Below are positions 6,392 through 20,664 of a DNA stretch of 64,000 bases, piece after piece. A program made the position numbers and the translations under genes. The first letter of the stretch is position 1. Each line of letters begins with the position of its first letter. The DNA is taken from contig NZ_CP150269.1 of the NCBI RefSeq assembly GCF_037976825.1, forward strand, positions 4,477,501 through 4,541,500. The letters are read 5' to 3'. A model generated the notes under the pieces. That model did no database searches. It was not told where the DNA came from and saw nothing but the letters and a program-made list of their open reading frames with translations. The stretch is from Paenibacillus sp. FSL K6-1330 (GTDB lineage Bacteria > Bacillota > Bacilli > Paenibacillales > Paenibacillaceae).

Positions 6392-6783
6392 CTACAATTT
6401 CTTGGCATTATTAAACCTATGTATTCCATATCCCTTAAAATCTGAAGAAACTATTGATTCCCTAAGAGGACATAAATTGGGTGTAAACCTTAATTCAATT
6501 CCCTTACTTAACAGTCTCTCAACCAGTCAATCAATCTTCTCTATACCCATTGGTTTTACGGTTTGATAGGAAATATAATATCCTGCAGTCTTATCAAAAA
6601 CTTCAAACCCCTCGTCTTCAAATTGGTCATACGATTCGCGGACAATCCCTTGGGAAGTAATAGGAGAATTCATGTTCCGCATCGATTGCCCAAACAACTG
6701 CCGGGAAATCCGGTCGATTCTGTTTTTCTCTTGGGATGAAGATTTCAATATCAGCCTCTTCGCTAAAATGAAAAAGCATTCAT
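6392..6783 (-). pseudogene. DUF6886 family gene, degraded
   Basis: Conceptual translation of the minus strand gives the family's recognisable N-terminal part (HFSEEADIEIFIPR, PAVVWAIDAEHEFSYYFPRD, CPRIV). A frame jump follows, then FEVFDKTAGYYISYQTVKP, then a stop at 6527-6529, then a conserved tail (LVERLLSKGIELRF, TPNLCPLRESI) to the TAG at 6392. Damage: a +1 shift just after the start (6771-6774), loss of a central segment with a frame change near 6637-6640, and a nonsense codon. The 94-residue open frame across it (6527-6811) is an artefact of these lesions. An ATG at 6783 with GAGG upstream is the probable ancestral start. Confidence 0.75.
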
Positions 6784-6792
6784 GCACCTCAT

Positions 6793-6886
6793 TTCTTCCA
6801 TGATTATACATCTATCAACCAAGGGGCGATAACCATAATGTGTTAATTGATTGTTAGTTGAAGTATACTTCTTCCTGATTATACAT
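6793..6886 (-). repeat. Cassette spacer A between kinase stop and DUF6886 remnant
   Basis: It begins directly after the kinase stop codon. It carries the word ACCAAGGGGC shared with spacers at 8242-8416 and 12224-12327, and two direct copies of a TGTATAATCA-GGAAGAA motif (minus strand) at its ends. Minus-strand AACTAAC and TTAACAC resemble attC R-type boxes but the ends are not clean. It is probably a diverged member of the spacer family. Confidence 0.45.
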
Positions 6887-7540
6887 TTAAAGATTTCTAA
6901 TTGTTCTAAGTATTTCTCTTTTTACTTTCTCTACCACGCTATTTTTTTCTTGATTTGCATCAATTATGAGATCTGCCTTTTCCTTTACCCGGATTCCATT
7001 GAGTAAATACATCTCCTTGACTCCTCCATATAAATAATCCGATAAAAAATGATCTAGCAAGCTTATTAAAACTTCCGGATCATGCTTTAAGTTCTTAATC
7101 AGATCATAGATTCTTCTTCCAAGAGATACCTCGGGACTAACATCCAGGTAAATTACTAAATCTATGAGATCTGCCACTTCATCCCTTTCCTTTCCAAAAG
7201 GCTCTTCAAGTAATATGATCTCACCAGGTTTTAATTCTAGTTTTTCTTTTGGTTTCAAATTACCATACTCTTCTGCCCAACCAATTCCCTTATTTAGGAT
7301 TACGGATTCACCATTTATAAGACAGATTAAATGTTCTCTAAGCAATGGTGTTTTAATTTCATTTGGATCTCCTCCACTGTGAATCCAACTAACAATACTC
7401 TCTGGAAAGTCTTTTCTTGATACGTAGTCATCGAAAAACAATGTTACGCAAGACAGTAGCTCTTTAGCTAATTCAATAACCAATGTACTCTTTCCAGACC
7501 CGGAATAACCGCTAACTGCAACTACTAAAGGTCTTTGCAT
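6887..7540 (-). CDS. Uridine kinase-like P-loop NTPase
   Basis: A 217-residue cytosolic protein with Walker A GYSGSGKST (10-18), a DD pair after the second strand (FFDDYVSRKDFP), and an EEPFGKERDE segment before the strand IDLVIYLDVSPEVSLGRRI, as in uridine kinase/AAA_18-type nucleoside or small-molecule kinases. The substrate cannot be told. ATG with TAGGAGATG upstream. It is one gene of the cassette-like array; a hairpin with a T run (7565-7596) sits in its leader and spacer A directly follows its stop. Confidence 0.75.
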   Translation of the reverse strand: MQRPLVVAVSGYSGSGKSTLVIELAKELLSCVTLFFDDYVSRKDFPESIVSWIHSGGDPNEIKTPLLREHLICLINGESVILNKGIGWAEEYGNLKPKEKLELKPGEIILLEEPFGKERDEVADLIDLVIYLDVSPEVSLGRRIYDLIKNLKHDPEVLISLLDHFLSDYLYGGVKEMYLLNGIRVKEKADLIIDANQEKNSVVEKVKREILRTIRNL

Positions 7541-7564
7541 CTACATCATCTCCTATAAAAAATA

Positions 7565-7596
7565 TAAGAGCAGATCTCAGTAGAGATCCGCTCTTA
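7565..7596 (-). terminator. Hairpin with T run in the leader of the kinase gene
   Basis: Arms TAAGAGCAGATCTC (7565-7578) and GAGATCCGCTCTTA (7583-7596) form a 14-pair stem with one mismatch and a 4-base loop, followed on the minus strand by ATATTTTTT. It ends the upstream NUDIX transcript or attenuates the kinase; its position 25 bases before the kinase start allows either. Confidence 0.7.
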
Positions 7597-7604
7597 TTGT
7601 TGAT

Positions 7605-7710
7605 CATCATAACATAGAAATTGTGCATTTCAAGTACTACTAAAGATTTTAATGCCTCGAACAGACTGAGTGCAGAACGTCCTGCAGCGTAAGCATATGG
7701 TTAGATGATG
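7605..7710 (-). repeat. Cassette spacer B, attC-like, after the NUDIX gene
   Basis: Read on the minus strand it begins CATCATCTAAC (7710-7700) and ends GTTATGATG (7613-7605), complementary outer ends with ATCTAAC matching the attC R'' pattern RYYYAAC. The body contains GCTTACGCTGCAGG, related to the GCGTAAACGC / GCTGCG parts of spacer E2. It starts 30 bases after the NUDIX stop. Confidence 0.55.
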
Positions 7711-7739
7711 TATGCAGCGTCTTTATATACTTTATACTC

Positions 7740-8165
7740 TCATATATTCTTCTCGTCATTAAATTCAATACAAAACGGTTGCGTTTCTGGGCTTAAACAG
7801 CACTCAATTCTTTGTCTAAAATCTTTCCATTCAACTTTTTTCAGTGCTTCTTCTATTGAAAAAAAGCCTGACTCCAAGCTCTCTGATGATTGTATTAATT
7901 CTCCACCTATAGGCTTCGCTAAAAATAGTGTATTGCAAATTGAATTTCCTACGTTCTGAAATATTCCACAGAATTTGATGATTTCTATGTCTATCCCTGA
8001 CTCCTCTTTGGTTTCTCTTATGGCTGCTTGACTTAAAGATTCTCCTACTTCAACTTGACCACCAGGCATCTCCCAGCCTCTTCTTGGTCCTTTAATAAGC
8101 AACAATTCGTTCTTTTCATTTATTACAATGGCAGCAGCCGAAACAATATGCTTGGGTGGATTCAT
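7740..8165 (-). CDS. NUDIX hydrolase
   Basis: A 141-residue protein with an intact Nudix box (GGQVEVGESLSQAAIRETKE then ESGI, residues about 35-58), the Mg-binding loop for hydrolysis of nucleoside diphosphate-linked substrates. The N-terminal strand HIVSAAAIVINEKNELLLIK is standard. Substrate unknown. ATG with AAGGAGAG upstream. Part of the cassette-like array, with attC-like spacers on both sides. Confidence 0.88.
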   Translation of the reverse strand: MNPPKHIVSAAAIVINEKNELLLIKGPRRGWEMPGGQVEVGESLSQAAIRETKEESGIDIEIIKFCGIFQNVGNSICNTLFLAKPIGGELIQSSESLESGFFSIEEALKKVEWKDFRQRIECCLSPETQPFCIEFNDEKNI

Positions 8166-8241
8166 AAAAGTCTCTCCTTAGTCGTTTGATGTAATTATGA
8201 TCTAAGGTATTTTTGTTTCTAAATGCTCTTTCACAGGTTTC

Positions 8242-8416
8242 ACCTAACTTTCTTGTATTCACGACGTCGATCTCCCTTAGATCGTTCCTATCTTAGGGAG
8301 ATCGATGTGTCCAACTGATTCCGTTCCCTATTATCTGAGCTCGCTCCGGGCGAATCCTCTTCAACCCCGGCCGGACCAAGGGGCATTTGCCCCGATGCGT
8401 GAATATGGTGTTGTAT
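8242..8416 (-). repeat. Cassette spacer C, attC-like, after the DUF1963 gene
   Basis: Outer inverted arms TATTCACG (8256-8263) and CGTGAATA (8398-8405) are perfect. The distal end carries GTTAGGT on the minus strand (8248-8242), a perfect match to attC R' (GTTRRRY), and the proximal end ATACAAC (8416-8410). An internal 15-pair hairpin (8268-8304, one mismatch) adds bulk. ACCAAGGGGC and GCCCCGATGCGTGAA link it to spacers A, E1, E2 and G. Confidence 0.55.
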
Positions 8417-8450
8417 GACGTACTCAACTTCTGTGAGACTCTTAAACCAA

Positions 8451-9272
8451 CTAAGTGCCCACTCGACTAGTCATAATGTGATCAAAATTCAGATTTATTA
8501 AATCCTCTTTCTTAATAAAGAAATATAAAAGACCTGATAAATCCCACTCCATCCCAATATCGCTATCAGAGTCACATTGGAATAATAGCGTTTCAGTTAA
8601 TGGATAACTACCAAATTGTAAAGTATCTATGTGTCCAAGAAATCTATATCCTATTCCTAGACTATACTTATCTAAAAATTCCGGTCTAAACTTAGACCAG
8701 TACAATTCGAGGGTCTCTTTATCAAGGATTATCTGATTATCTTGTAGATAATCGGAATCTGGAATCGTTAACTCTACATTGAAATTTACCGAACAGCTCT
8801 CAAAAATTTGGACTCCGCTTAATTCATTTGATGCAGTAACTCTCTGTAGCTGTGAGGTTGTTGGATGGTATAGAACCTTTCCATTCTTATATTGATCAAA
8901 ATCAAACTCTGGGTCTTCATACCATATTTCATCGTTATAAACATAAAAGAAATATAACACGCCTTCCCTCAGATATTTCTCGTTAAAAGACTGCATTGGT
9001 AATTCACTCAAGTTAATTTGAGCTAAAAATGACATGGGTATGTCTCTCCAATGCGGCCAAGAAAAAGATGAGGGTACATCGGGACTCCCCCCAATCTTAC
9101 TTTTGCCAATCTCAATGTTAATTTCTGCTGTCGGTACGGGTGTTAAAAAAATGCCCGGTTCAATCAATGGCTTAAAGGCATCCCAATAATTTCCTAACCC
9201 CGAATCTGTAAATAATTCTTTGATATCATTATAATTTGCTGGACCTATGTATGTGGGCGAGACATCTGACAT
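8451..9272 (-). CDS. DUF1963 (YwqG-like) protein
   Basis: About 273 residues with the DUF1963 pattern: GKSKIGGSPDVPSSFSWP, PMSFLAQINLSEL, the strand LYFFYVYND, and a C-terminal LFQCDSDSDIGMEWDLSGLL, as in B. subtilis YwqG. Function of the family is unknown. I prefer the ATG at 9272 with GGAG upstream. An upstream in-frame ATG at 9353 would add a hydrophobic lipoprotein-like leader ending MTSC but has no RBS. It follows the DUF2785 gene closely and probably shares its transcript. Confidence 0.75.
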   Translation of the reverse strand: MSDVSPTYIGPANYNDIKELFTDSGLGNYWDAFKPLIEPGIFLTPVPTAEINIEIGKSKIGGSPDVPSSFSWPHWRDIPMSFLAQINLSELPMQSFNEKYLREGVLYFFYVYNDEIWYEDPEFDFDQYKNGKVLYHPTTSQLQRVTASNELSGVQIFESCSVNFNVELTIPDSDYLQDNQIILDKETLELYWSKFRPEFLDKYSLGIGYRFLGHIDTLQFGSYPLTETLLFQCDSDSDIGMEWDLSGLLYFFIKKEDLINLNFDHIMTSRVGT

Positions 9273-9382
9273 TTTACGTTCACTCTCCGAGTCATGATCA
9301 GAATCATATGTACAACTTGTCATAATATAGATTACGACAATGAAACAAACCATTCGATTTAGCTAGAATTAGACTTGTTTTT

Positions 9383-10195
9383 TTAAAGCTGTTTTAATGT
9401 TTTTATTATTTCATTTGTTATAACTTCAGATCCGCTAATATCCAGTAATTTAAAATAGACACTTCGTAAAAGGTTTTTGGTATTTCCTCTTATAATCTCA
9501 TCTTGAGGATATATTCCCAATCTTTCAAAACCTCCAAGTTGTTGCACCCAATTAATTATAATATCTTTCTTTAGAGTATTACGTTTTACAATTTGAAGAA
9601 CGACTTCGGCTATCCTTTCATCTTCACCGTTTGTAAAATAATAGTTATTAACACAAGCCTTTTCCCCTATCAATTCTAAAATAAACAATATCTGTTTATG
9701 AGAATAATAGGACGAGGCGACGATTGAATCTAAAGCATCAGCCGCATGTGCAATCGAATGTGCCCATCCCTTGTCTAATACATATCCTCTAAAATCCTTT
9801 TCAAGTTCAAAATATAAAGTCACTCTAGAGTATATATATTCATAATCCGTTTCAGTTAAATAATTGGAGATATCGTTGTAATGTAAAGCAAGTGGTATGA
9901 ACAATACTGAAAAAGAACGCGTAAATACGGTATCTTGATCGTTATCCCCAATTCCATAGAATAAATGATCATCATCTAAGGTAACGTATAATACTTTTCT
10001 TACTGTTTCTATACTTAGTTCTTGATTCATTATCCATTTACTTAAAGTTCCATAAATGAGTTGATCCCTTAATTCCTCATCGATCGACCCAATGTGTTGA
10101 ATCATTTCTTGAACTACTTGATCAATATCTGTTCCCTCAGGAACCTTATAATTATTATCTCTTACATCTCTCAGAAAGCTTTTAATGTTGTTCAT
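9383..10195 (-). CDS. DUF2785 family protein
   Basis: A 270-residue, mainly helical cytosolic protein. The diagnostic stretch is a RSFSVLFIPLALHYND helix followed by EKDFRGYVLDKGWAHSIAHA (about 138-157), typical of DUF2785. The conserved RGY, W and His residues suggest an active or ligand-binding site, but no activity is established to my knowledge. ATG preceded by AAAAGGAGAAA. It lies between spacer E1 and the DUF1963 gene without a spacer between the two, suggesting a two-gene cassette or a lost spacer. Confidence 0.75.
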   Translation of the reverse strand: MNNIKSFLRDVRDNNYKVPEGTDIDQVVQEMIQHIGSIDEELRDQLIYGTLSKWIMNQELSIETVRKVLYVTLDDDHLFYGIGDNDQDTVFTRSFSVLFIPLALHYNDISNYLTETDYEYIYSRVTLYFELEKDFRGYVLDKGWAHSIAHAADALDSIVASSYYSHKQILFILELIGEKACVNNYYFTNGEDERIAEVVLQIVKRNTLKKDIIINWVQQLGGFERLGIYPQDEIIRGNTKNLLRSVYFKLLDISGSEVITNEIIKTLKQL

Positions 10196-10220
10196 TTTTT
10201 TCTCCTTTTGTTTAGGGGTT

Positions 10221-10301
10221 CAGGTACTAAGGTTGCGATATCTCCATCAGGAATACAGGATCGGGAAGCTATTTGCCCTGCTCGGGAACGTAATGTTAGA
10301 C
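10221..10301 (-). repeat. Cassette spacer E1, attC-like, after the 55-residue ORF
   Basis: On the minus strand it opens with GTCTAACATTACGTTC (10301-10286), which matches both the consensus R'' box RYYYAAC and the following L'' region of classical attC sites (for example the GTCTAACAATTCGTTC end of aadA cassettes). It starts 21 bases after the stop of the 55-codon ORF. The 3' end is less clear (CTTAGTACC near 10233-10225). Confidence 0.55.
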
Positions 10302-10322
10302 GATTTTATTAACCTTGATTCA

Positions 10323-10490
10323 TTAACTGTCAAATAATCCTATGTATCGTTTTTCTAATTCCTTATTAAATAAATCTATAGGTCTAAAATATTCTCGTTG
10401 ATTATTTAGATCTATCGATTTGTAAACTCTATCATTATTCCATCTATTTAAATCATTATAATTATCAAATTCTTTTCTTACTTCCTGCAT
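10323..10490 (-). CDS. Small 55-residue protein of unknown function
   Basis: ATG at 10490, GGAG 13 bases upstream, TAA at 10323-10325. The product is charged and soluble (MQEVRKEFDNYNDLNRW near the start, PIDLFNKELEKRYIG near the end), without membrane segments. I do not recognise it. Its codon use and AT richness match the neighbouring array genes, and it is bracketed by attC-like spacers E1 and E2, exactly where a cassette gene should be. This is the best evidence that it is real. Confidence 0.6.
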   Translation of the reverse strand: MQEVRKEFDNYNDLNRWNNDRVYKSIDLNNQREYFRPIDLFNKELEKRYIGLFDS

Positions 10491-10510
10491 GATTAGAACA
10501 CACTCCTATT

Positions 10511-10597
10511 GTTAGTTGTTGTATAAACAGCTTCCTCGAAGTCTCTCCAACAGCCCACGGGCGTCAGCATGCCCGCTGCGTAAACGCATTGTTATGC
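10511..10597 (-). repeat. Cassette spacer E2, attC-like, after satA
   Basis: Minus strand begins GCATAACAATGCGTTTACGC (10597-10578), resembling the R''-L'' end of attC sites, contains an inner hairpin CGGGC/GCCCG (10558-10575) and ends near AACTAAC (10517-10511). It starts 39 bases after the satA stop. GCCCGCTGCGTAAACGC relates it to spacers B and C. Confidence 0.55.
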
Positions 10598-10635
10598 GAT
10601 TCCCTTGCCCATCTTCCAAACTGCTTCAACCTTTA

Positions 10636-11163
10636 TCAATCTTCAAATTTGTTATACCAGAATACTGCTTTTTCATTAGCTGTCGGAAATTTTGAATAAA
10701 GCATATTATCAACTCCACCGATAATAAAATTGTTCTTGGAGTAAAACCTACATGCTGAAATATTAACATCTTGAGTTTCGAGCATAAGACCGATAAGTTT
10801 ATTCTCCTTTGCCCATTCAATTGCTTTCTCTAGTAGTATTTTCCCAATCCCTTTGTTTCTCCAATTCTTTGCAACAGCGATATCTTCTAATAAAGCATAG
10901 CCATTCCAATGAGTACTAAGTTGTATTTGGCCTACACAATTATTGTCAACATAGTAGAAGTAGACAGCTTTTTTATCGTTATCTATATAAATTACGTCGA
11001 TGTCTTCATTGTCATATCCCTTAGTATATTGTTCAGAGAATAGTTCTTCCGTGTAAGTCCAAATATCGTCTTCGTATTTAGGAATTATCCTTCCGAATAC
11101 TGTCAATTCTTCATTAGCCTTATTAAAATCCTCTATATTTTCATGTGTCATTTTAATAATCAT
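10636..11163 (-). CDS. satA: Streptothricin N-acetyltransferase (SatA-like GNAT)
   Basis: A 175-residue GNAT enzyme whose whole length follows the SatA/Sat4 family: N-terminal MIIKMTHENIEDFNKANEEL, IIPKYEDDIWTYTEEL, acetyl-CoA loop EDIAVAKNWRNKGIGK, then GLMLETQDVNISACRFYSKN and ending NEKAVFWYNKF. These enzymes acetylate the beta-lysine amino group of streptothricin and confer resistance. ATG with AAGGAGAT upstream; no lesion seen. It lies inside the cassette-like array, a notable parallel to sat genes carried in classical integrons. Confidence 0.85.
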   Translation of the reverse strand: MIIKMTHENIEDFNKANEELTVFGRIIPKYEDDIWTYTEELFSEQYTKGYDNEDIDVIYIDNDKKAVYFYYVDNNCVGQIQLSTHWNGYALLEDIAVAKNWRNKGIGKILLEKAIEWAKENKLIGLMLETQDVNISACRFYSKNNFIIGGVDNMLYSKFPTANEKAVFWYNKFED

Positions 11164-11185
11164 AATCCCAAGTATCTCCTTAGAT

Positions 11186-11233
11186 AGTTTACGTTTACTC
11201 AGATTTGCAAGGGAGTCGTAACTGCGGTTAGGG
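11186..11233 (-). repeat. Cassette spacer F, short, after the broken GNAT gene
   Basis: Minus strand starts CCCTAAC (11233-11227), close to the R'' box, followed by AGTTACG (11223-11217) that pairs with CGTAAACT (11193-11186). At about 50 bp it is the shortest spacer. It starts 40 bases after the end of the upstream gene and stops just before the satA RBS. Confidence 0.4.
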
Positions 11234-11273
11234 AGTTGAATATGGTTGCTGAGTCCGCTTCTTCGAAATGCTG

Positions 11274-12162
11274 CTAATACATCTCGTCGGGCGGTCTACT
11301 CAATCGGCTGTCCGGTCTATAATATTTAGTTACGATATGGTACAAGGATTTTTCCTTGAAGCCGAGACTCTCGTACAGCGTTTTCGCAGGATTGCCTTTG
11401 ACTACCTCAAGCTTAACGATCTTTTCACCACGATGCATCATCTCATTCAAAAGAAATGAGACGAAGGCTTTACCGTATCCACGAGATTGCATCTGGCCGA
11501 ACGGCCACCTGACGCAGCTCACAGCCGTCAATAACTCCACATGCCGCTATTTCACCATCGATATCCATTACAAATCTGTTGTTTCTATCTTTCAAAAAAT
11601 GATTCCGTTCCCATTCTGAAGGAGCAATATAATACGATGGGAGAATACCAACTCGTTCACGCATTTTGTAAAAAGCCATTTCGCGAATAACATGCCACAC
11701 AGGATAATCATCATCTTCATACTGCCTGATAGGAAAATGACTTTCAGGAAGAATTTCTCCTTCACGCACCATGATATAAGAAGAATGAAGTATATGGTAA
11801 CCGTTCTTACATACAAATTGCAGAGAAGACCGATCGCCGTCCATACATGCACCAATCGAACGTTCGACTGCCTCGTATTGATTAAGTAATTGTTCTGCGT
11901 TTTCAATAAGCTTGCTACCGATGCCTTTTCCTCTATATTCCTTTCTTACAAAGATTGTCATCTCGGTTCCTCTCCCCTTAAAACCGCTAAAGGAGAGAAA
12001 TCCCACGGTCACATTGTTGTAACAAGCAACAAATATACCTTCAGGAAAATTGATTTCGGTCTCCAGAAACTTTTCCTTAAAGTATTCATCCCCAAACAAC
12101 ATGGCTTGGATAGCGGATATATCCCTTTCGGGTTTGTAGGGTTCTATTATTAGATTCTCCAC
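11274..12162 (-). pseudogene. Two-domain GNAT acetyltransferase gene broken by a frameshift
   Basis: Two reading frames together encode a tandem GNAT. The first domain (about 1-135) has the acetyl-CoA loop VRKEYRGKGIGSKLIE. The second begins near residue 143 and continues to VAVRPD, where the frame is lost. The other frame resumes at once with QSRGYGKAFVSFLLNEM and ends with ESLGFKEKSLYHIV. A 2-base deletion near 11489-11493 (VRPD-M-QSRGYGKA expected) explains it. The start is a GTG at 12162 with AAGGA upstream. Loss of the second acetyl-CoA loop from the main product should inactivate that domain; the first may still fold. Confidence 0.8.
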
Positions 12163-12223
12163 CTCGATAATCCTTTCAATTAATAGGGAGGTAACATCAC
12201 CGTTTTGTGTGTTTTATCCCCTC

Positions 12224-12327
12224 GTTATAATCATGACATCAATGTATCGCCTGAATCCTATTCCTCGAACCATCTACGTCGACCAAGGGGCGAATGCCTC
12301 GCAGTAGGAATGTCATGTGAGTTGATG
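12224..12327 (-). repeat. Cassette spacer G, attC-like, after the second NUDIX gene
   Basis: Perfect outer arms CATGACAT (12232-12239) and ATGTCATG (12310-12317) enclose about 70 bases containing ACCAAGGGGC, shared with spacers A and C. GTTATAA (plus strand) lies at 12224-12230 beside the distal arm. It starts about 30 bases after the NUDIX stop. Confidence 0.5.
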
Positions 12328-12355
12328 TAATTGCCATCTCCAAAATACCGTTAAA

Positions 12356-12817
12356 TCATGTTTCCCTTATATGTACTTCTTTCTCTCCATCTTCCCAAAC
12401 CACATGAATTTCGAATGTCCCATCTTGGAAAAAGAAGGGCATTCTTCTTCTGATAGATTGTTGCATAGGTAAATGTTCTAAATCTGAAATCTTCACCCAC
12501 TCTGGTATACCTTCTGTGAAATCCGACAATAATTCTCCAGAAAAATCGTTTGTTAAGTAATTTAAAATAATGTGTCTATCATTGGCTTCTTCATTTACAT
12601 ACTCATAGATCCCTTTAAACCTCAGATTTTTAACAATAAGTCCTGTTTCTTCTTTTACTTCTCTGATCGCACCTTCAATTGGACTTTCAGGAAATTCCAA
12701 TTTACCTCCAGGAGCAATATATCCCTTAAAATTATCATGGGTTCTATTAAGCATTAAAACCCTATCCTCATCTTGCACCATACATAGAGTCCACATCTTA
12801 TAATTTACATCTTTCAT
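12356..12817 (-). CDS. NUDIX hydrolase, MutT/8-oxo-dGTP diphosphatase type
   Basis: A 153-residue protein with a full Nudix box (GGKLEFPESPIEGAIREVKE then ETGL). The start MWTLCMVQDEDRVLMLNR and the tail WVKISDLEHLPM resemble MutT/MutX-type 8-oxo-dGTP diphosphatases, though specificity cannot be fixed from sequence. ATG with GAGGTG upstream. It is the first gene, in transcription order, of the cassette-like array. Confidence 0.85.
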   Translation of the reverse strand: MKDVNYKMWTLCMVQDEDRVLMLNRTHDNFKGYIAPGGKLEFPESPIEGAIREVKEETGLIVKNLRFKGIYEYVNEEANDRHIILNYLTNDFSGELLSDFTEGIPEWVKISDLEHLPMQQSIRRRMPFFFQDGTFEIHVVWEDGEKEVHIRET

Positions 12818-13028
12818 AATTCACCTCATCGATATAACTTCTTCGCAAAAGTAAACGGATTGATCAGGTAATTTCATATTCTCAGCTACTCCATTTATGT
12901 ATTCAATATCTCCTCTTTATCTGATAATTTCATAACGTCAAATCCATCTTCATTGTGCATTCGCTCCTCTGCCGTCTGACTGGTTATTTTCGCCTATCAT
13001 ACCATAATCATCTATCACGAGACATGAC
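12818..13028. other. Intergenic region upstream of the cassette-like array
   Basis: Probably holds the promoter of the array. A small minus-strand frame (MHNEDGFDVMKLSDKEE, ATG near 12962 with GAGGAG upstream) runs about 21 codons. After a one-base frame change it would continue (DIEYINGVAENMKLP) to a TGA next to the NUDIX start. This looks like a decayed small gene. No integrase or attI-like site was recognised. Confidence 0.3.
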
Positions 13029-13130: not shown

Positions 13131-13958
13131 TTAAGGTTCAAAACCCTTCTGGCTCACAAACAACTGCTCCTCCGGAAACTCCCTGCTAAATCGGTCATAG
13201 ACCACCTGATAAGCAGCTGGATCGTACCATTCGTGCTCCCCAAGCTCCTCGTACAGAGCCTGAACCGGCAGTCTTTTTGTACGTTTCCCGCCACTGCCAT
13301 CCCCCATAAAATAATCGTCGATGCACACGCGAGTCACGAGCGGCCGCAGGATCTGTGGGAAAGCCTCCGTGCTCGGAAGCACGGGTGCAATCGCTGCTTG
13401 AACGGGAATTCCTGCGTCTCTCAGGAGTGCCAGGACTTTCAGTCTCGCTTGGATCGGCGGGGCTGATGGCGTAAAATGCTTGCGCATCTCATCACGGTCC
13501 GTCTCGACCGTCATGCTTACCCGCACGCGTTCTCCTAACTGCTGCAGCAGATCAATATCCCGCCGGACCAACGGACTGCGTGTCTGTACGAGCAGAAAAT
13601 CCGGCGGTTCGCTGACCATCACCTCAAGCAATGCACGAGTCACTTCTTCCTTGGCCTCAACCGACTGGTAAGGATCGGTGCTGGAAGACATGAAAATCGT
13701 GACGGGTCCCTTGGACTTGGCACGCTTCAGTTCTTTACGCAGGATGGCAGCAGACTCGAGTTTAACGTCAACCCAGCTCCCCCATTCCTGATTGCGGAAT
13801 ATCGATACCGGCATTTGCCGGACATAGCAGTAAGAACAAGCGAAGGTGCAACCCGTATACGGGTTCAATGTATGGCTGTATCCATTCAGGAATCCCGTTC
13901 CTTTATTGAGCAGGGTCTTCGGCGTTTTATAGAGCACTTCTTGTTTCACCTCGGACAC
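13131..13958 (-). CDS. SPL-like (Rv2578c-type) radical SAM protein
   Basis: A 275-residue radical SAM enzyme. The 4Fe-4S motif CTFACSYC (CxxxxxCxxC spacing CTFACSYCYV, about residues 37-46) follows YSHTLNPYTG, the usual start of the spore photoproduct lyase-like/Rv2578c group. SSSTDPYQSVE and the RVSMTVETD strand belong to the same fold. The reaction of this subgroup is not firmly known; its place beside alkylation-repair genes fits a nucleic-acid role. Start is a GTG at 13958 (GAAATGGG upstream) or a GTG three codons later; no ATG is in frame. Confidence 0.82.
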   Translation of the reverse strand: MSEVKQEVLYKTPKTLLNKGTGFLNGYSHTLNPYTGCTFACSYCYVRQMPVSIFRNQEWGSWVDVKLESAAILRKELKRAKSKGPVTIFMSSSTDPYQSVEAKEEVTRALLEVMVSEPPDFLLVQTRSPLVRRDIDLLQQLGERVRVSMTVETDRDEMRKHFTPSAPPIQARLKVLALLRDAGIPVQAAIAPVLPSTEAFPQILRPLVTRVCIDDYFMGDGSGGKRTKRLPVQALYEELGEHEWYDPAAYQVVYDRFSREFPEEQLFVSQKGFEP

Positions 13959-14035
13959 CCCATTTCTACACTTTCTTCTATTATACTATTTCTCTCCTCA
14001 CAACCCATAATGAATGAGTAAACACACGCGCCCCT

Positions 14036-14749
14036 CTACTTTGCATCATGAAAAATAATCCCGAGGCTGTATCTGGTACCCGACGTAATCGTGCTGACGC
14101 CATGCCGGAGCGTGGTCCGGTAATACCCCCGTGTTCCCTGAACGGGACGATGGTTGGTCGGAAAGATCAACCCCGCTCCTTGTTCCAAGGTGATTACATG
14201 GCCCCGGCTCTGTGCCCGCGGCCGCTGCTCGATAAGCAGAAACTCTCCTCCCGAATAATCGACTTCCTTCTCATTCAGAACAAACACCACTTGAAACGGG
14301 AAAAATTCATCTCCGTACAAATCCTGATGCAAGCAATTATAGCCGCCCTCTTCATATTTCAAAATCAACGGCGTCGAACGCTTTTGCCCCTGAGCATGGC
14401 ACATCTCAAGAAACTCATCCAAGCTCGCCGGATACCTCTTCTCATGTCCAAGCTGCGTCAACCAACGGTTAGCCGTCAGCGCAAGCTCTGGATAGAAGCC
14501 TTCCCGAAGCTGCTGCAGCGATTCTGGCAGCGGAGCTTGATAATACTTGTACTCTCCGAGCCCGAACCGGTGCCGAGCCATATTGATCGTGCTTCGAAAC
14601 CGATCCTCTTCCGAATAGGTGTTGATAATCTCTGTACACTCTTCAGAGAGCAGCAGCTTTGGTAGGACAGCATATCCCTGTTCATCCAAAGCTCCTTGTA
14701 TCCCCGTCCAATCGAGCCCTGCTATGCGTTGCGGCAATGAATTAGGCAT
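14036..14749 (-). CDS. 2OG-Fe(II) oxygenase, third gene of the ada operon
   Basis: A 237-residue iron/2-oxoglutarate dioxygenase. The HxD iron motif is in NCLHQDLYGDEFFPFQ, the distal His in TTLRHGVS, and the 2OG-binding Arg in GTRYSLGIIF. The start overlaps the adaB stop by 8 bases, so the three genes adaA-adaB-this one form an operon. Association with methyltransferases suggests an AlkB-like oxidative demethylase of DNA or a related repair role, but it is not a classical AlkB sequence, so this is inference. Confidence 0.8.
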   Translation of the reverse strand: MPNSLPQRIAGLDWTGIQGALDEQGYAVLPKLLLSEECTEIINTYSEEDRFRSTINMARHRFGLGEYKYYQAPLPESLQQLREGFYPELALTANRWLTQLGHEKRYPASLDEFLEMCHAQGQKRSTPLILKYEEGGYNCLHQDLYGDEFFPFQVVFVLNEKEVDYSGGEFLLIEQRPRAQSRGHVITLEQGAGLIFPTNHRPVQGTRGYYRTTLRHGVSTITSGTRYSLGIIFHDAK

Positions 14750-15290
14750 AATTCATCGTCTCCCTCATCCTGGCTCGCTCACCCTCAAGCTCCAGCAGCC
14801 GGGTCTTCATGGCAAGCCCCCCGCGATACCCCGTCAATGCGCCGCTTTTGCCAATTACCCGATGACAAGGAACTGTTATCAGCAGCGGATTAGCCCCAAT
14901 AGCCGCTCCTACAGCTCGAACTGCTGCCGGCTTTCCGATCTGGTTGGCGATGTCAGAATACGTAAAAGTCTGCCCATACGGGATCTGGCATAGCGCATTC
15001 CATACCGCCATCTGAAAAGCGGTCCCCTTGTAATCCAAAGCCAACTCAAACCGATCGCGTGTCCCCTGAAAATACTCCATCATCTCGGCGGCATATGGCT
15101 GCATAGCTTCATCATTCTGCACGATTTCACAGCCAGGGAATTTTGCTTGTACCCAGTCCTCCAACTCTGTTAAAGGCTTATCCTGTGATCCGACGTAGCA
15201 TAATCCCTGCTCCGTGGCCGCGATGTATACACTCCAGTTATCATGGCGCAGTTGAGTCCAGTTAATGGTAATCGAATGATTGGATTTCAT
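14742..15290 (-). CDS. adaB: Methylated-DNA--protein-cysteine methyltransferase
   Basis: A 182-residue O6-methylguanine-DNA methyltransferase with the active-site PCHRVIG (Cys accepts the methyl group irreversibly), the helix-turn-helix YGQTFTYSDIANQIG, and the Asn/Arg-hinge segment AVRAVGAAIGANP. The ATG at 15290 is chosen for its GGAGGTG; an upstream GTG lacks that. The start lies inside adaA (29-base overlap), showing translational coupling. It repairs O6-alkylguanine, as in B. subtilis AdaB. Confidence 0.93.
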   Translation of the reverse strand: MKSNHSITINWTQLRHDNWSVYIAATEQGLCYVGSQDKPLTELEDWVQAKFPGCEIVQNDEAMQPYAAEMMEYFQGTRDRFELALDYKGTAFQMAVWNALCQIPYGQTFTYSDIANQIGKPAAVRAVGAAIGANPLLITVPCHRVIGKSGALTGYRGGLAMKTRLLELEGERARMRETMNYA

Positions 15291-15873
15291 GATCGTGCAC
15301 CTCCGCACTCGTATTTTTTAAATATTGCCCGCGATAGCTAAGGGGGGTCATCCCCGTTTTCTTCTTAAACAGCGTGATAAAATAAGCCGTGTTCTCCATG
15401 CCCACTTTATGGCCGATATCCGAGATCGCCAAGCTGGAATTCGTCAGGAGCTCCTTGGCCTTGCCGATCCGGTAATCCTGAATGTATTCCATCGGGGTCT
15501 GACCTTTGACACGCTTAAATATCCGGTGTAGATGGTACGGACTGCCGTGGCTCACATCGGCCAATACATCAAGCGACAAATGATCCATGTAGTGTGTATC
15601 GATATACTCGGTGACAAGTTCAATCCATTCGTGGTCCGGCAGACGTTCTCCCGTCGGCTTGCACCTTTTGCATGGCCGGAAACGCTCAGCTTTCGCTTCA
15701 TCCGCTGATTGAAACACGCGCACATTTTCAAACTTCGGGGGTCTGGATTTACAGGATGGTCTGCAGAAGATCTTTGTTGTCTGCACCGCATAGAAAAACT
15801 TGCCGTCACTGTCCTTGTCGTTGTTGATAATGGCCTGCCACTGGGCTTCGGTCGGTTGTATTCGGTTTGCCAC
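15262..15873 (-). CDS. adaA: AdaA: methyl-sensing transcriptional activator
   Basis: A 203-residue protein combining an Ada zinc-binding N-terminal domain (FCRPSCKSRPP and RPCKRCKP, four Zn-binding cysteines, the first being the methylphosphotriester acceptor) with an AraC-type double helix-turn-helix (about 95-190). When methylated on Cys it activates the ada regulon. It is divergent from alkA and heads the operon with adaB and the 2OG oxygenase, as in Bacillus. Likely start ATG or GTG with GGAGGTGAG upstream. Confidence 0.93.
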   Translation of the reverse strand: MANRIQPTEAQWQAIINNDKDSDGKFFYAVQTTKIFCRPSCKSRPPKFENVRVFQSADEAKAERFRPCKRCKPTGERLPDHEWIELVTEYIDTHYMDHLSLDVLADVSHGSPYHLHRIFKRVKGQTPMEYIQDYRIGKAKELLTNSSLAISDIGHKVGMENTAYFITLFKKKTGMTPLSYRGQYLKNTSAEVHDHEIQSFDYH

Positions 15874-15914
15874 GTATCCTCACCTCCGCTAACATTATAA
15901 CCACAGGATAATCC

Positions 15915-15982
15915 AGTTGTACGCTTTTTGGAATAGAAGAGCAAGATAACAAAATTATACGGTCTGCATTTATGGTACAACT
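15915..15982. promoter_or_regulatory. Inverted repeat in the adaA-alkA divergent promoter region
   Basis: AGTTGTAC (15915-15922) and GTACAACT (15975-15982) are perfect inverted copies spaced 52 bases, between the divergent adaA and alkA starts. A TATAAT on the minus strand (15959-15954) lies 15 bases from the right copy. Likely sites for AdaA or the two -35 regions; not proven. Confidence 0.45.
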
Positions 15983-16014
15983 AGTATGGAAGAGTTCAGG
16001 AGCGAAAGGAAACG

Positions 16015-17001
16015 ATGAAGATGCAGAAGCGAAACCAGATACATGACGATAAGCCCTATACTATGGAGAACCACCCCCCCCGGGACAGCTGGGAAGATCA
16101 TGCCGAAGCCATAAGGCTGTTCGTACCGAAGGAGTTCAGTTTTACGGAGAACCTCAATTATTTGCAAAGATCGCCGAACGAATGTCTTTTTCATATCCGG
16201 AATGACAGCATCTACCGGGCTATCCCGCTTGATGGTGACATCGCTGTGATTGAAGTCAGTGCGGAGCCTCAAGAACAGGCGATCCTTGTTCGGTTTTTGG
16301 GGAATACCGCCCCCTCCGATCCCTGCAAGCGGGCGGAAGTAGCGGGTTATGTTCGGGACTGGTTCGATCTGAATACCGATCTCGTACCGTTCTATACGAT
16401 GGCGGAAGCAGATCCATTACTCAGTCAAGCCGTTCAATCCTTCTACGGGCTTCGCAATATGGGTATTCCCGATCTGTTCGAGGCTTTGTGCTGGGGCATT
16501 CTGGGGCAGCAGATTAACCTGGCCTATGCCTATACGTTAAAAAGACGTTTCGTAGAAGCCTTCGGCCGCCGCGTGGAATGTGAAGGAGAGGTTTATTGGA
16601 TTTTTCCAAGACCTGAGGACATTGCACCGCTGCGTGTTGAAGACCTGGACGGGCTTCGGATGACCGTGAAAAAAGGCGAGTATCTTATCGGAGTGGCCCA
16701 GCTTATGGTAGAAGGAAAATTGACCAAGGAGCAGCTGCTTGAAGCAGGTAGCTTGAAACAAGCGGAGAAACAACTGGTCAGCATTCGCGGGATCGGACCA
16801 TGGACGGCCAATTATGTGTTGATGCGCTGTTTGCGAATACCGGCCGCTTTTCCCATCGATGATGTGGGTTTGCACAACGCCATCAAACATCTGCTGGGCT
16901 TGGAGGTCAAACCGACGAAGAAGGAAATACTGGAGCTGTCGGCAGCATGGGCGAACTGGGAATCCTACGCCACCTTTTATCTGTGGAGGTTTCTCTATTA
17001 A
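16015..17001 (+). CDS. alkA: DNA-3-methyladenine glycosylase II
   Basis: A 328-residue HhH-GPD base-excision glycosylase. The helix-hairpin-helix IRGIGPWTANYVLMRCL and the catalytic Asp in AFPIDDVGL are in place, preceded by the AlkA N-terminal domain (YLQRSPNECLFHI) and LCWGILGQQINLAYA. It removes 3-methyladenine and other alkylated purines. ATG with GAAAGG upstream. Divergent from adaA and presumably activated by methylated AdaA. Confidence 0.93.
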   Translation: MKMQKRNQIHDDKPYTMENHPPRDSWEDHAEAIRLFVPKEFSFTENLNYLQRSPNECLFHIRNDSIYRAIPLDGDIAVIEVSAEPQEQAILVRFLGNTAPSDPCKRAEVAGYVRDWFDLNTDLVPFYTMAEADPLLSQAVQSFYGLRNMGIPDLFEALCWGILGQQINLAYAYTLKRRFVEAFGRRVECEGEVYWIFPRPEDIAPLRVEDLDGLRMTVKKGEYLIGVAQLMVEGKLTKEQLLEAGSLKQAEKQLVSIRGIGPWTANYVLMRCLRIPAAFPIDDVGLHNAIKHLLGLEVKPTKKEILELSAAWANWESYATFYLWRFLY

Positions 17002-17018
17002 AGTTCAAACATAATAAA

Positions 17019-17065
17019 GAGGACGTCTCCCTCTTCTGCCATCACTGACAGCAGGGAGACCTCCC
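17019..17065 (+). terminator. Hairpin after alkA
   Basis: GTCTCCCT (17025-17032) pairs with AGGGAGAC (17053-17060), with flanking GAGG/CCTC-like pairs. Only a weak T run follows. It separates the convergent alkA and secreted-protein genes. Confidence 0.6.
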
Positions 17066-17098
17066 CTATTTAGCAAACCCTTTGATCCGAAGAATCAA

Positions 17099-17578
17099 CT
17101 ATTCGATGAAGTACAGTTTACCGTCAACCTCGAGTGAGATCGCGGATTGCGACAAATCGTCTTTAAGCTTCTTCGCATAATCCACCACTTGATTAAGCGA
17201 GTCCTTGTCAAGCTTCTCGGCAAACGCGTACACGATCGTTACTTTTTCCTTGATCAGTGTTTTGTTATTGTCCACCCATGCCCCTTCACCCGGAATCGCC
17301 GTTGCCCCGCCAAACCAGCCGGACAGCTTTGTCAGTGTTTGGTCAACAAACTTCTGATGAGCTGCATCCGTAATCGGAATATCTCCCTTCACCGTTGAAG
17401 GCACGTAAATCTTAACGACATGATCCAAATGGAACTGATCGTTCAGAGCACTCTGTGTAATGGCGGTTGCCGTAGGATTGCCCTCTGCACTAAAAGACTG
17501 CTGAACCGGTACTACGATAAGTGTTAACAATAATGCCGCTGCAAAAGCGATAAGCCAACCTTTTCTCTTCATGTCCAT
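17099..17578 (-). CDS. Secreted protein of unknown function
   Basis: A 159-residue protein with a signal peptide (KRKGWLIAFAAALLLTLIVV, cleavage probably near SFSA). The mature part has an alpha/beta pattern: HVVKIYVPSTVKGD, GGATAIPGEGAWVDNN, EKVTIVYAFAE. It carries no cysteines and no motif I can assign. ATG with AAAGGAG upstream, although the third codon is also ATG. Monocistronic by appearance. Confidence 0.65.
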   Translation of the reverse strand: MDMKRKGWLIAFAAALLLTLIVVPVQQSFSAEGNPTATAITQSALNDQFHLDHVVKIYVPSTVKGDIPITDAAHQKFVDQTLTKLSGWFGGATAIPGEGAWVDNNKTLIKEKVTIVYAFAEKLDKDSLNQVVDYAKKLKDDLSQSAISLEVDGKLYFIE

Positions 17579-17797
17579 TTCTCCTTTATGTATGGTCTCG
17601 TATCCCGTACAAGCATGGCATTTCAGTTCTCCAGTGCAACCTTCCTGCCATCCGCACGATACAAACTAGCACATATTATATACTGGCCTTTGCTTATCAG
17701 CTATGGGACATACGGATTATATTATGCGGAATCATGTAAAAAAGCCGATATTCCCGATAAACAAACTACGAGAATTCGACTTTTGATGATTACAGCG

Positions 17798-18844
17798 CTA
17801 TTTTATCGATCCGATCCAGGATAAACTCTCCACCGAACGATGATCCATGCTGCCGTTCAAAATAGCTTGAACATCATGCAGCGTATCCTGCAAATGCACC
17901 CGCTCGCCAGGTAACCCGGTGTAAGCCTCGGCAACGTAAAAAGGCTGCGTAAGATAAGCCTCAAGCCGTGCTCCACGCTCATAAACCTCCGTCTCGGATG
18001 CCGGAATGGCCTGCAATCCTCGCACTTGAACCAGTGAACGCAGCTCGCGATAACGGCGCAGCAGCTTCTGGGCCCGCTGTTGGACCGATAAGTGAGCCTG
18101 ATCCAGATGAACGCCTTCCGATACGGAAGATGTAGAATATAACGGGTTCACGGCAGGAAACATATGTCTGGCCGCCAGATCGGCATCGAAATACCACAGC
18201 GTCTCCAGCGGACCGTAAGGCATGTCTTCATCGACAACCGCACCTTTAAGGTCCACAAGAAAAGTCGTGACCTGCCTCAAACCCTCTTGTTGGAGACGTT
18301 CCTGGAGGTCATAGATTTTGCCGGTCAAGACATGCTCCCGGTCCGCTGCAAACACAATCTCTTTATCGGGATTTGCATTCGTCACAATGGAATAGGTTTC
18401 TCCTATAGAATTGGCAACCCGTTCTACATCATTCAGCATATCCTGCAGCTCGGGATATTCGCCTTCCGGCTTCAGCAGAATCGTCATATACCCTTCCTGC
18501 TTGAAGTGATGAAACAATTCACCGAGCAGCACCAATTGGCCCATTCCGGGACGGGCGACCAGCCCGACGGTACCGCCTTTGGCCAGAGGAGCAAATAGAT
18601 CAAGGGGCTTAATGCCCGTTTCGATCATCTCCACGCTTTCCCCGCGCAGGATCAGTTCATCCAGACTGCATTTTGCCAGAGATGCCAATGCGGCAATGGT
18701 GCGGACTTCCGCCCGACCAACGGGAATTTTTCCTGTGCATAGGTTGGAGACCGTGGCTGGCCGTAATCCCACGGATTTGGCTGCGCTGGTCAGGTTCGGA
18801 ACCCTTTGTCGTAAAAGTGATACATTCAGCTTCAGATTGTCCAA
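17798..18844 (-). CDS. HTH protein fused to a degenerate F1-ATPase beta-like domain
   Basis: A 348-residue protein. Residues 5-65 form a Cro/C1-type helix-turn-helix (SAAKSVGLRPATVSNLCTGK). Residues 72-335 align with the ATP synthase beta subunit: ETGIKPLDLFAPLAKGG, then VGLVARPGMGQLVLLGEL where beta has GLFGGAGVGKTVLIQEL, then a Walker B-like FLVDL, MFPAVNPLYSTS (beta: IYPAVDPLDSTS), and YLTQPFYVAEAYTGLPG. The Walker A Lys-Thr are replaced by Gln-Leu and the segment with the catalytic loops is shortened, so ATP hydrolysis is unlikely. The start is TTG with AAGGGTG upstream. Inferred role: a transcriptional regulator using an F1-type fold to bind a ligand. Confidence 0.75.
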   Translation of the reverse strand: MDNLKLNVSLLRQRVPNLTSAAKSVGLRPATVSNLCTGKIPVGRAEVRTIAALASLAKCSLDELILRGESVEMIETGIKPLDLFAPLAKGGTVGLVARPGMGQLVLLGELFHHFKQEGYMTILLKPEGEYPELQDMLNDVERVANSIGETYSIVTNANPDKEIVFAADREHVLTGKIYDLQERLQQEGLRQVTTFLVDLKGAVVDEDMPYGPLETLWYFDADLAARHMFPAVNPLYSTSSVSEGVHLDQAHLSVQQRAQKLLRRYRELRSLVQVRGLQAIPASETEVYERGARLEAYLTQPFYVAEAYTGLPGERVHLQDTLHDVQAILNGSMDHRSVESLSWIGSIK

Positions 18845-18883
18845 GTGCGTACACCCTTTTTAGTGATAGATTGATGGTTCTGC

Positions 18884-19594
18884 CTAATCTCTTTTTAGAA
18901 AAGAGTCTGCGGTGCGGACAAACACATCCACATCCGGTTCAAAAATATTATGATCATGCTCCTCGAACGCCACGATGCTTGCCTGAGGCAGCGACAGCTT
19001 ATATTGTTCCACTGCTTCTAATGATAACCCGGGATGTGGTTTTACGCCACGGATAATAAGGACTGGGCATGTCAATCGGGTTAAGTCGTTCCACAATTCG
19101 ACCTTAGCCGATTCATGTTGCAGCGCCTGTAAAGCCGATGTTTTCATACGGTCGGACAGCTTCTTTCCTCTCCAAGACGGTAGCGAAGCGAAGAATTCCA
19201 CCCATCCCGCTAGCAGCTGGGTATGAACCGCGGGATAGTCTCCGATGATCAGGCCTTGAATGCGTTCCGGATTCTGAACCGCGTAGCCTAACTGATAGGA
19301 CACCCCTCGGGAGTATCACATGAGTACGAATTGCTCAAGTTCAAGATGACGAATGGCTGCATCAATGTCGCTAATATGGTATTCAAGCGTATATCCCAAA
19401 ACAGGCGAATCACTTCGGCCCCGGCCACGAAGTGTGATGACAACGATATGTCTGGGCGTCAGCTTTTCCATTATGGCGATGTAATCCTCAGCCGACTCGG
19501 ACAATCCCGGGATGATGACCAGTGAGGTTTGTTCATTCCTAAGCTCCCGATGTACCTCCGTAACGTGAATATGCACCCCTTGGTTATTGACCAT
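18884..19594 (-). pseudogene. Alpha/beta hydrolase gene with a nonsense codon at the nucleophile elbow
   Basis: One frame of 237 codons encodes an alpha/beta hydrolase: LVIIPGLSESAEDYIAIM (oxyanion region), VITLRGRGRSDSP, EQFVLM, then TGA (19318-19316), then YSRGVSYQLGYAVQNPERIQGLI and a His near the end in EEHDHNIFE. The expected elbow is GYSRG, so a GGA to TGA change replaced the first Gly of the GxSxG motif. No other lesion is seen, suggesting recent inactivation. Without readthrough, the product ends before the catalytic Ser. The clearest ATG (19594) lacks a close RBS; an upstream AGGAGG suggests a non-ATG start. Confidence 0.8.
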
Positions 19595-19707
19595 CTTCTC
19601 GTATAACTGCAGAATAGACCTCCTGAAAAATTGTTGTTTATCTATGCAGTGTGATCATAGGGTTATCTCTCTTTTTATCCTTCTGAGCCATCCCCCTGCA
19701 CTCCCTT

Positions 19708-20664
19708 TCACCTCAACGCCCCAAAAGGTAAAAATGCGTGCACGCCCTTAAGGATGTTCACGATCTGAGTTACCCGCAGATCCAATGTTAAGGTGGCGTA
19801 GGCATACGCCTCCGTTCTTGAAATAGTGTAAAGCTCGGTCATGAGATCAAGCATCCCGCTTAAGGCCATCCACATGGCTTCGTCCAGATCCTCGTGGAAC
19901 CCCATCGTAAGCCACCCGGTACTCGTCTTGGCTCTGGGCATCGTTATGGGCATGTCGTCACGGACATGAAAGGTTAGACACACCTTATCCATGGGGCATT
20001 CCAGGGCGGGACCGCTAACTTCGCCGTCGCCCTGAGCCGCATGTCCATCCCCTGTTGAGAACAGCCCGCCATCCACAGGAATCGGCAGGTACAACGTGCT
20101 GCCAGCTGTCAACTCTTTGCAATCGAGATTGCCTCCATATGGGCGCGGCACAAAAGTCGTATGCTTGCCTTTTTCCTTCGGCGGCATGCCCATAACCCCC
20201 ATAAACGGTTTCAGGCCGATGCTGTACTTGAAATCTCCGAACTGACTTCTGCCTGTCATTGTCCTGGCATCCAATTCAAAATCCAGCGTCACTTCCTTGG
20301 TGTTGGTCATGCCCAGCTTCTCGTTCCAATAACTCGGAAAACCTCCGGCAGAGGTCCACCCCCACGATCCGGGAATTACTTCGTTGATCTGAATCTCCAA
20401 TGTAAGTCCGGGTTTAGCCCCTTGAATATGGACGGGACCCAATAACGCATGCCCAAAATGCTCCTCCTGCCGCTCCGGCTTGCGCTCCGTAAACTTCGTT
20501 CTCGCCGCGCCCGGGGCAGCACGCTTCTCCAGTCCCCAACCCGCATCTAAAGTTTGATACACGACAGTATCCCCAGACTGAATGTATAGGGCAGGCTCCA
20601 GTTCCCTGCTAAAAAATCCATGAAGCGTATGAATATCCGGTTGTAGCATATGAACCTGTGACAT
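19708..20664 (-). CDS. Acetamidase/formamidase family protein
   Basis: About 318 residues of the FmdA_AmdA family: PALYIQSGDTVVYQTLDAGW, GPVHIQGAKPGLTLEIQINE, GVMGMPP, the GGNLDCKELTAGSTLYLPI loop and GDGHAAQGDGEVSG, in the usual order. The family hydrolyses formamide, acetamide or related amides to ammonia. I chose the ATG at 20664, preceded by AAGGGAGAAAG, over upstream starts. Four TTACT(C/T) words at 22-base steps lie upstream and may be activator sites. Confidence 0.85.
   Translation of the reverse strand: MSQVHMLQPDIHTLHGFFSRELEPALYIQSGDTVVYQTLDAGWGLEKRAAPGAARTKFTERKPERQEEHFGHALLGPVHIQGAKPGLTLEIQINEVIPGSWGWTSAGGFPSYWNEKLGMTNTKEVTLDFELDARTMTGRSQFGDFKYSIGLKPFMGVMGMPPKEKGKHTTFVPRPYGGNLDCKELTAGSTLYLPIPVDGGLFSTGDGHAAQGDGEVSGPALECPMDKVCLTFHVRDDMPITMPRAKTSTGWLTMGFHEDLDEAMWMALSGMLDLMTELYTISRTEAYAYATLTLDLRVTQIVNILKGVHAFLPFGALR

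Follow-up and report, generated by a model that had tools for sequence, protein, structure and literature searches.

The window analysed here, 64,000 nucleotides of the chromosome of Paenibacillus sp. FSL K6-1330 (G000 in the genome comparisons), carries about nine small AT-rich genes alternating with spacers on the minus strand of positions 6392–12817. G+C is 0.364 in this stretch and 0.503 in 13131–20000, in agreement with an earlier note, made from the letters alone, that found the genes AT-richer than their neighbours and proposed a cassette array in a Firmicute chromosome. The results below give a probability of roughly 0.88 to the reading that the stretch is a satellite, now in decay, of an integron-like system in the same chromosome, with a recombinase, an attI-like point and a long array of units, each a gene with its site. 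The proposal holds in that cassettes are present and the genome encodes a tyrosine recombinase; the copy in the window is decayed and retains one whole site.

Along the window, with all features on the minus strand, the stretch begins with a DUF6886 gene split over two frames (6527–6811), at the place of which the same-species strain G070 has a 170-residue open reading frame (ORF). A spacer with an attC remnant (6782–6886) precedes a uridine-kinase-like gene (6887–7540; PF00485, E 6e-7), and the next spacer (7541–7739) retains the opening R'' box ATCTAAC at 7700–7706 and the 5' arm of a site, as judged by eye, with no match to the covariance model R1 described below. The following NUDIX cassette gene (7740–8165; PF00293, E 5.7e-19) has this remnant box at one end and GTTAGGTGAAACC at the 5' end of its cassette (8236–8248). 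The whole attC-like site, at 8242–8416, comprises an R'' box ATACAAC, a three-hairpin body and a closing R' box GTTAGGT. Beyond it lie a DUF1963 cassette gene (8451–9353; PF09234, E 3.1e-34), missing from G070 at this place as a synteny gap, a truncated spacer of 29 nt (9354–9382), at whose point G070 has an attC-like site (L166 10061–10208, 34.6 bits), and a DUF2785 cassette gene (9383–10195; PF10978, E 5.1e-46). Three spacers with attC remnants (10196–10322, with R'' GTCTAAC at 10295–10301; 10491–10635, with R'' GCATAAC at 10591–10597; 11164–11267, with CCCTAAC at 11227–11233, where G070 has an additional unit) are interleaved with a 55-residue ORF that matched no Pfam family (10323–10490) and a streptothricin-acetyltransferase-like GNAT gene (10636–11163; PF00583, E 1.7e-20). 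A GNAT gene broken into two frames (11268–12162; a 309-residue ORF in G070), a spacer (12163–12355) with a remnant at 12242–12323, and a second NUDIX cassette gene (12356–12817; PF00293, E 9.8e-16) complete the series. At the array edge (12926–12944) a gene is broken off after 18 bp, at G|TTATGAAATT; G070 has a 254-residue ORF here that resembles short-chain dehydrogenases/reductases (SDR), and the cut gene is presumably an SDR, judging from its N-terminal motif. The Pfam scan of the cargo (two NUDIX, two GNAT, a PRK-type kinase, DUF2785, DUF1963 and the split DUF6886) bears out the NUDIX, GNAT and kinase genes named in the earlier note; the streptothricin acetyltransferase named there has Sat4 (NF000360) as its best model, at 180 bits and below the cut-off of 380.

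The boxes that the earlier note quoted from the spacers are present on the minus strand: GTCTAACATTACGTTC at 10286–10301, and longer sequences opening with ATCTAAC (7693–7706), GCATAAC (10585–10597), CCCTAAC (11222–11233) and GTTAGGT (8236–8248). The word said to recur in three spacers, GCCCCTTGGT (= ACCAAGGGGC), does so at 6818–6827, 8375 and 12282–12291. The inverted outer arms ascribed there to four spacers are not borne out; one spacer alone is a whole site. On the 64-kb window R1 gives a single match, 8242–8416 (42.9 bits, E 9.4e-9; motif scan score 13), and with filters off the best other spacer is the remnant at 12242–12323 (10.9 bits, E 0.49), which is not significant alone, so that the covariance check proposed in the note upholds one site and leaves the other spacers at background. 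The window resembles a cluster of attC sites lacking integrase (CALIN; IntegronFinder 2.0, PMC9024848, with a default of two sites) in having cassette-like genes and no integrase. It differs in its one significant R1 site, below that default, and in that the sites are not classical; G070 has three at E<0.001.

Comparison with G070, whose flanks at this locus (L166) are about 96% identical, reveals the decay. The same locus there has four R1 matches (E<0.001 for three, E 0.14 for the fourth), extra units, and ORFs that are open where window genes are broken. The GNAT cassette in G070 opens with GTTATGC, and the remnant GCATAAC that closes it in the window (10591–10597) is the exact complement. 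We read the window stretch as a decayed satellite in which one site is whole and the other spacers are remnants, deletions having removed most of its sites in this strain. For G066 and G033, synteny ends at the same base as the array edge, 12926; this looks like either recombination with a secondary site or a deletion that ran from such a site to the start of a cassette. As the earlier note stated, no integrase lies in the window (TIGR02249 scan of the own genome, E<=1e-10). Rfam at gathering scores finds nothing in the window beyond a fluoride riboswitch (40157–40217, plus strand, 61.3 bits).

The word GCCCCTTGGT has 17 copies in the 7.43-Mb genome, against 10 for the reversed pattern; seven of the 17 share a strand and fall between 3,115,780 and 3,173,106. 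The 100 kb examined around these copies (L018–L022) contain the parent system, which extends from 3,111,673 to about 3,154,700 (L019–L021) in the same chromosome, 1.37 Mb from the window. At its head, on the same strand as the cassettes, stands the gene for a 337-residue tyrosine recombinase (3,111,673–3,112,686), and the attI-like insertion point follows immediately downstream on that strand. Measured between this joint and its last site, the array is 41.9 kb long, with a G+C of 36.2% against 48% in the left flank, and it holds about 47 small genes, mostly of 27–42% G+C, with long spacers between them and 41 attC-like sites. The family scan took in 47 ORFs of the array, 44 of them on the plus strand. 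PF00583 is found in 8 of the 47 proteins scanned, and methyltransferases, AAA kinases, GrpB, a PALP enzyme, PF00144 (the beta-lactamase family), ankyrin repeats and a HepT-like protein are among the matches listed, which cover 25 of 55 families. Within the array, L020 12484–12725 (minus) matches a type I toxin RNA of the BsrG type (83.1 bits); toxin cassettes stabilise arrays in Vibrio, and by analogy this RNA may do the same here. Apart from BsrG and a piece of a group II intron, Rfam at gathering scores finds nothing in L019, L020, L021, L115 and L170. Three 95-residue ORFs oppose the array direction (L019 9081–9368, L020 7691–7978 and L021 2991–3278, all minus).

The spacers share the layout NNNTAAC, 4 nt, TATTCACGC ... 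CGTGAATAC, 6 nt, GTTANNN. A motif scan of the 100 kb that allows three mismatches in the arms and requires them to pair finds 41 sites on the gene strand and 2 on the opposite strand, compared with 0–2 in each of five shuffles; it was used in place of a cruder regular-expression scan, which gave 11 sites. R1 was built from 29 short sites in ten genomes, all outside the window and six belonging to the main array. In L019–L021 it finds 41 plus-strand sites at E<0.001, of which six are the training sites, and a further site lies at 3,173,074; two weak minus-strand echoes of trained sites also reach E<0.001. With filters off it gives long sites low scores. Lone R1 sites off the arrays lie at 266,301–266,442 (minus, 33.5 bits) and 3,173,074–3,173,219 (plus, 49.4 bits) in an own-genome search that scored 150 of 2,120 candidates, the window site not being among the matches listed.

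RNAalifold folds the short sites into an L-arm stem closing three hairpins, an arrangement like a clover leaf. Three alignments were made: A2, with 29 of 30 picked sites from ten genomes; A3, with 42 of 45; and A4, from which no model was built, with 23 of 30 plus the window site. The stated structure pairs 92.7% of cells in A2 and 92.5% in A3, compared with 32–42% and 28–47% when the partners are slid. Two-sided changes occur in 11 of 25 pairs in A2 and 12 of 16 in A3, amounting to 52 cells against 17.4 in shuffles and 100 against 27.6, respectively. Since relatedness among the rows can by itself lift counts above those of shuffles, and a structure taken from the same rows has an advantage over slid partners, weight is put on the count of two-sided cells. 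The folded form of the sites seems to be under selection, and in the 160-nt class two-sided support is limited to the L stem, hairpin 1 and a portion of hairpin 3. The sites have the inverted arms of attC in the order R''-L''...L'-R', with the structure kept while the sequence varies; peculiar in detail are the three hairpins and the fully paired L arm.

The boxes carry a signature expected of cassettes that move as circles. In a circle, the site at the 3' end of a cassette pairs with that cassette's own 5' end, so the R'' box should complement the R' box that opens its own cassette. In G000 the reverse complement of R'' equals the R' box at the 5' end of its own cassette at all four variable positions in 27 of 38 cases (mean 3.5 of 4), in a count that leaves out a spurious motif match at 3,130,130 and the site at 3,173,074. 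The site's own R' is perfect in 6 of 38, other offsets from −5 to +5 give 1–4, and none of 20,000 permutations reaches the observed sum. Six of the 11 misses are cassettes longer than 1,150 bp, which probably hide an overlooked site; with a limit of <1,150 bp, 24 of 29 matches are perfect. Ten other genomes, two of which gave no pair, show the same when pooled: 50 of 81 at offset −1, the only offset to which the <1,150-bp limit was applied, against 11 of 123 at 0, 4 of 113 at +1 and 13 of 104 at −2. Read from sequence, this match between R'' and the 5' end of its own cassette would be the mark of units that moved as circles, and together with the ends of shared units described below it suggests that each gene with its own site is a mobile cassette.

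The spacers might instead be terminators, attenuators or repeats of the repetitive extragenic palindromic type in a hypervariable operon, with turnover by homologous recombination between repeats. Hairpins do follow the genes, the shared repeats could promote exchange, and at least one deletion in the window ends in the short shared word CCCTTG. Such an operon does not predict that the complement of R'' matches its own rather than the next cassette's 5' end, nor one fixed insertion point behind the recombinase, nor that sites keep to the recombinase strand, as 350 of 351 do in all 45 loci scanned (the lone opposite-strand match is in L110). To our knowledge, no operon or terminator model predicts the circle signature. 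Ordinary operon spacers or terminators were rejected on that signature, and the repeat-exchange explanation is very improbable.

The fixed insertion point is seen in comparisons between genomes. In G070 the left flank of the parent array is collinear as far as the GTTA at the attI-like joint. In G070, G033 and G007 alike, homology breaks off at one and the same base, which lies 12 bases after the G of this GTTA. Behind this one joint the first cassette differs in each of G000, G070, G033 and G007, as expected of an attI site. The flanks in G070 are 93–98% identical (right flank 97%), and of 36 G000 cassettes shorter than 1,800 bp, G070 shares 3, G033 shares 1 and G007 shares 2; none occur in the stretches of G049 and G071 that were compared. 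In these six shared-unit matches the right end falls at a unit boundary in five and the left end in three, 8 of 12 ends in all, with tolerance windows that were set after the joint alignments had been inspected. High-scoring segment pairs (HSPs) shorter than 250 bases were left out, and the inspection of joints covered 19 of 31 HSPs.

A constant joint bears on whether each unit is instead a separate non-autonomous element, moved by an Xer-like recombinase with no platform. Lone sites such as those at 266,301–266,442 and 3,173,074, and satellites that lack a recombinase, as in the window, fit that idea. One constant attI-like joint in four genomes speaks against it, as do arrays downstream of the recombinase in 20 regions, where mostly downstream DNA and hardly any upstream DNA was compared. 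We give this explanation very little credence.

The search of the chromosome for a recombinase with the IntI-specific domain, as the earlier note had suggested, was half successful: the tyrosine recombinase is there and the domain is missing. The protein scores 227.6 bits with NF040815 (cut-off 220) and 201.5 bits, in two stretches, with the integron integrase model TIGR02249 (cut-off 265). Its best match in the PDB is Vibrio cholerae IntI4 (2a3v, 6.9e-38), level with the XerA-like 4a8e; this alignment also falls into two stretches, between which the query has 26 residues and IntI4 has 68, the IntI insertion being missing. An AlphaFold model of a 381-residue relative, P0005 (mean predicted local distance difference test score 87.1, predicted template modelling score 0.56), has 2a3v as its top Foldseek match (E 9.2e-17), followed by XerA. 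Aligned with five IntI proteins, 19 of 19 family members lack the IntI-specific insertion. Members are mostly 360–430 residues long, and about 95 residues precede the SAM-like domain. In P0002, P0005 and their relatives this N-terminal stretch carries a motif like IPGRKWxxExxxWxIPYT that none of the five aligned IntI has, and it could be the part that binds the site. A first tree had long branches and was rebuilt; in the rebuilt tree the Paenibacillaceae set (95/99) and the Bacteroidota set join at 85/90, and IntI forms a separate clade (99/99). By the approximately unbiased (AU) test, PB and IntI as one clade are marginally rejected (p-AU 0.042), and PB, BA and IntI together are not (p-AU 0.34). 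Relatives of the recombinase in phages number 241 records at E<=1e-15, all below 60% identity. A LexA box of the type CGAACNNNNGTTCG, which we take to be the consensus, is found within one mismatch neither in the 700 bases upstream of the own recombinase nor in the first 1,200 bases of nine other regions with partial upstream DNA; the scan gave two matches with two mismatches.

These properties bear on whether Paenibacillus simply acquired a classical integron, with IntI, attI and ordinary attC sites. The layout is the same, and IntI4 ranks first among PDB entries in both sequence and fold. Against this stand the missing insertion, the TIGR02249 score, the separate position of IntI in the tree and the short sites with three hairpins. 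The R' boxes disagree as well: of 297 boxes, at least 284 have A in fourth place and at least 186 have T in fifth, so that GTTRRRY, whose GTT was preset by the scan, fits a minority. A classical IntI was rejected on the missing insertion and the cut-offs not reached, and acquisition of a classical integron is improbable.

The preferred reading, a chromosomal integron-like system with the window as its satellite, leads to a mechanism that resembles integron recombination. The recombinase would bind one folded strand of the site, with the R/L stem closing three hairpins, and would cut next to the G|TT of the R' box, a joint supported by both the circle signature and the common attI-like joint. 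Units would be excised as circles and re-inserted mostly at attI. The architecture, the circle signature, the unit-wise differences, the compensatory changes and the constant insertion point come directly from computation; which protein acts, which strand is used and present-day activity are what we infer from them. The system works like an integron at nearly every computable point, and its recombinase fails the test that defines IntI.

Several observations weigh against this interpretation. Further pair types in the folded sites do not exceed shuffles (357 of 500 in A2, 58 of 500 in A3), and the match of R'' to its own site's R' is somewhat above chance, 293 of 20,000 permutations reaching it. 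Shared cassettes are few, six matches over five relatives. The strain comparison that the earlier note called for places differences between genomes at site ends; in the window, several junctions with same-species G070 lie inside site remnants rather than at site ends, and one junction, a deletion, has the microhomology CCCTTG. The own recombinase may be impaired, because its start lies within the N-terminal stretch (337 residues, compared with 375 in P0002, 381 in P0005 and 371 in P0008). In the genus the recombinase (E<=1e-75) is found in 20 of 100 genomes and has in-frame stops in 8 of these 20, and therefore many copies may be dead.

The 3' arm pattern occurs in 74 of the 100 genomes of the genus; because 33 genomes also give a control match, the safer figure, counted by hand, is the 42 genomes with at least five matches, a number the controls never reach, none being above four. 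In the host family Paenibacillaceae, 81 of 295 genomes in 12 of 19 genera have a recombinase match at E<=1e-70. All 20 regions beside recombinase relatives (19 from other genera, mostly single-contig assemblies, plus a 3-kb piece of G088) carry one or more sites on the strand of the recombinase. A generic arm scan is clearly above its own shuffles (0–4) in many regions; it is not in L106–L108, L110, L112, L117, L120 and L121, where the motif scan gives 2–9. At the level of the class the recombinase is matched in 21 of 398 genomes, and five of these lie outside the host family. Among these, R1 finds 8 sites in G653, one strong and three weak in G369 and one weak in G380 (E 0.027); G388 has no R1 match and two generic sites with matching boxes, and the generic scan finds no site in the 1.4-kb piece of G425.

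The family also has recombinases of Bacteroidota type (L134 3064–3929, L136 2875–4660 and L170 7001–11260), and one such gene, which we take to be the one named xerD, adjoins tet(X3) on an Acinetobacter plasmid. The recombinases of Chryseobacterium and Flavobacterium have a similar N-terminal stretch, by eye, and no insertion; their sites differ in sequence from those of Paenibacillaceae, and R1 finds nothing in L134–L137. Judged by eye, two of three cassette joints in L170 give a circle match: GTTACCTA (9527) with TAGGTAAC (10117), and GTTACCAG (10416) with CTGGTAAC (11254). No such match exists between CGTATAAC (9401) and the first joint. L136 and L170 diverge right after the same GTT behind the recombinase. 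These joints, from two plasmids and with no chance control, are a lead only.

A comparison with the superintegrons of Vibrio is instructive. Those are sedentary chromosomal integrons with a recombinase at the head, an attI site and tens of gene-plus-site units mostly on one strand, including many acetyltransferases and some toxin-antitoxin genes; most classical intI genes point away from the cassettes. The Paenibacillus array likewise has a head recombinase, an attI-like joint and tens of units, with its PF00583 proteins, one HepT-like protein and one BsrG-type RNA. In contrast, its recombinase lacks the IntI insertion, has an extra N-terminal stretch and is encoded on the cassette strand, and its sites have R–L spacings of 4 and 6 nt and three hairpins. 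The recombinase is like those of XerA type in passing the NF040815 cut-off and unlike them in heading a cassette array; that model, by its name 'site-specific tyrosine recombinase/integron integrase', makes no distinction between the two types.

A modest balance of probability favours a second great integron lineage in Bacillota (Paenibacillaceae and other Bacilli) and Bacteroidota, including the neighbour of tet(X3), with recombinases that lack the IntI domain and have a distinct N-terminal domain, the Bacillota members using three-hairpin sites. Such a lineage would have escaped notice because both the IntI domain and classical attC sites are demanded by finders; PMC9668308 states the former of IntegronFinder and describes the additional domain around patch III as defining for IntI and necessary for integron recombination. 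For Firmicutes, a survey of complete genomes describes integrons as extremely rare, with one complete case (Limnochorda pilosa) and few CALIN (PMC9024848). A literature search by title and start of abstract found nothing on Paenibacillus integrons or on such recombinases, which is weak evidence of novelty as bioRxiv and most subscription journals were not covered. The system is a direct test case for how a recombinase without the IntI domain reads a folded site. If it is active, folded-site recombination would proceed without that domain, and both the rarity of integrons in Firmicutes and the necessity of the domain would need revision. Cassette capture would then be ordinary in a large Gram-positive family, and a large unread stock of cassette genes would open to survey.

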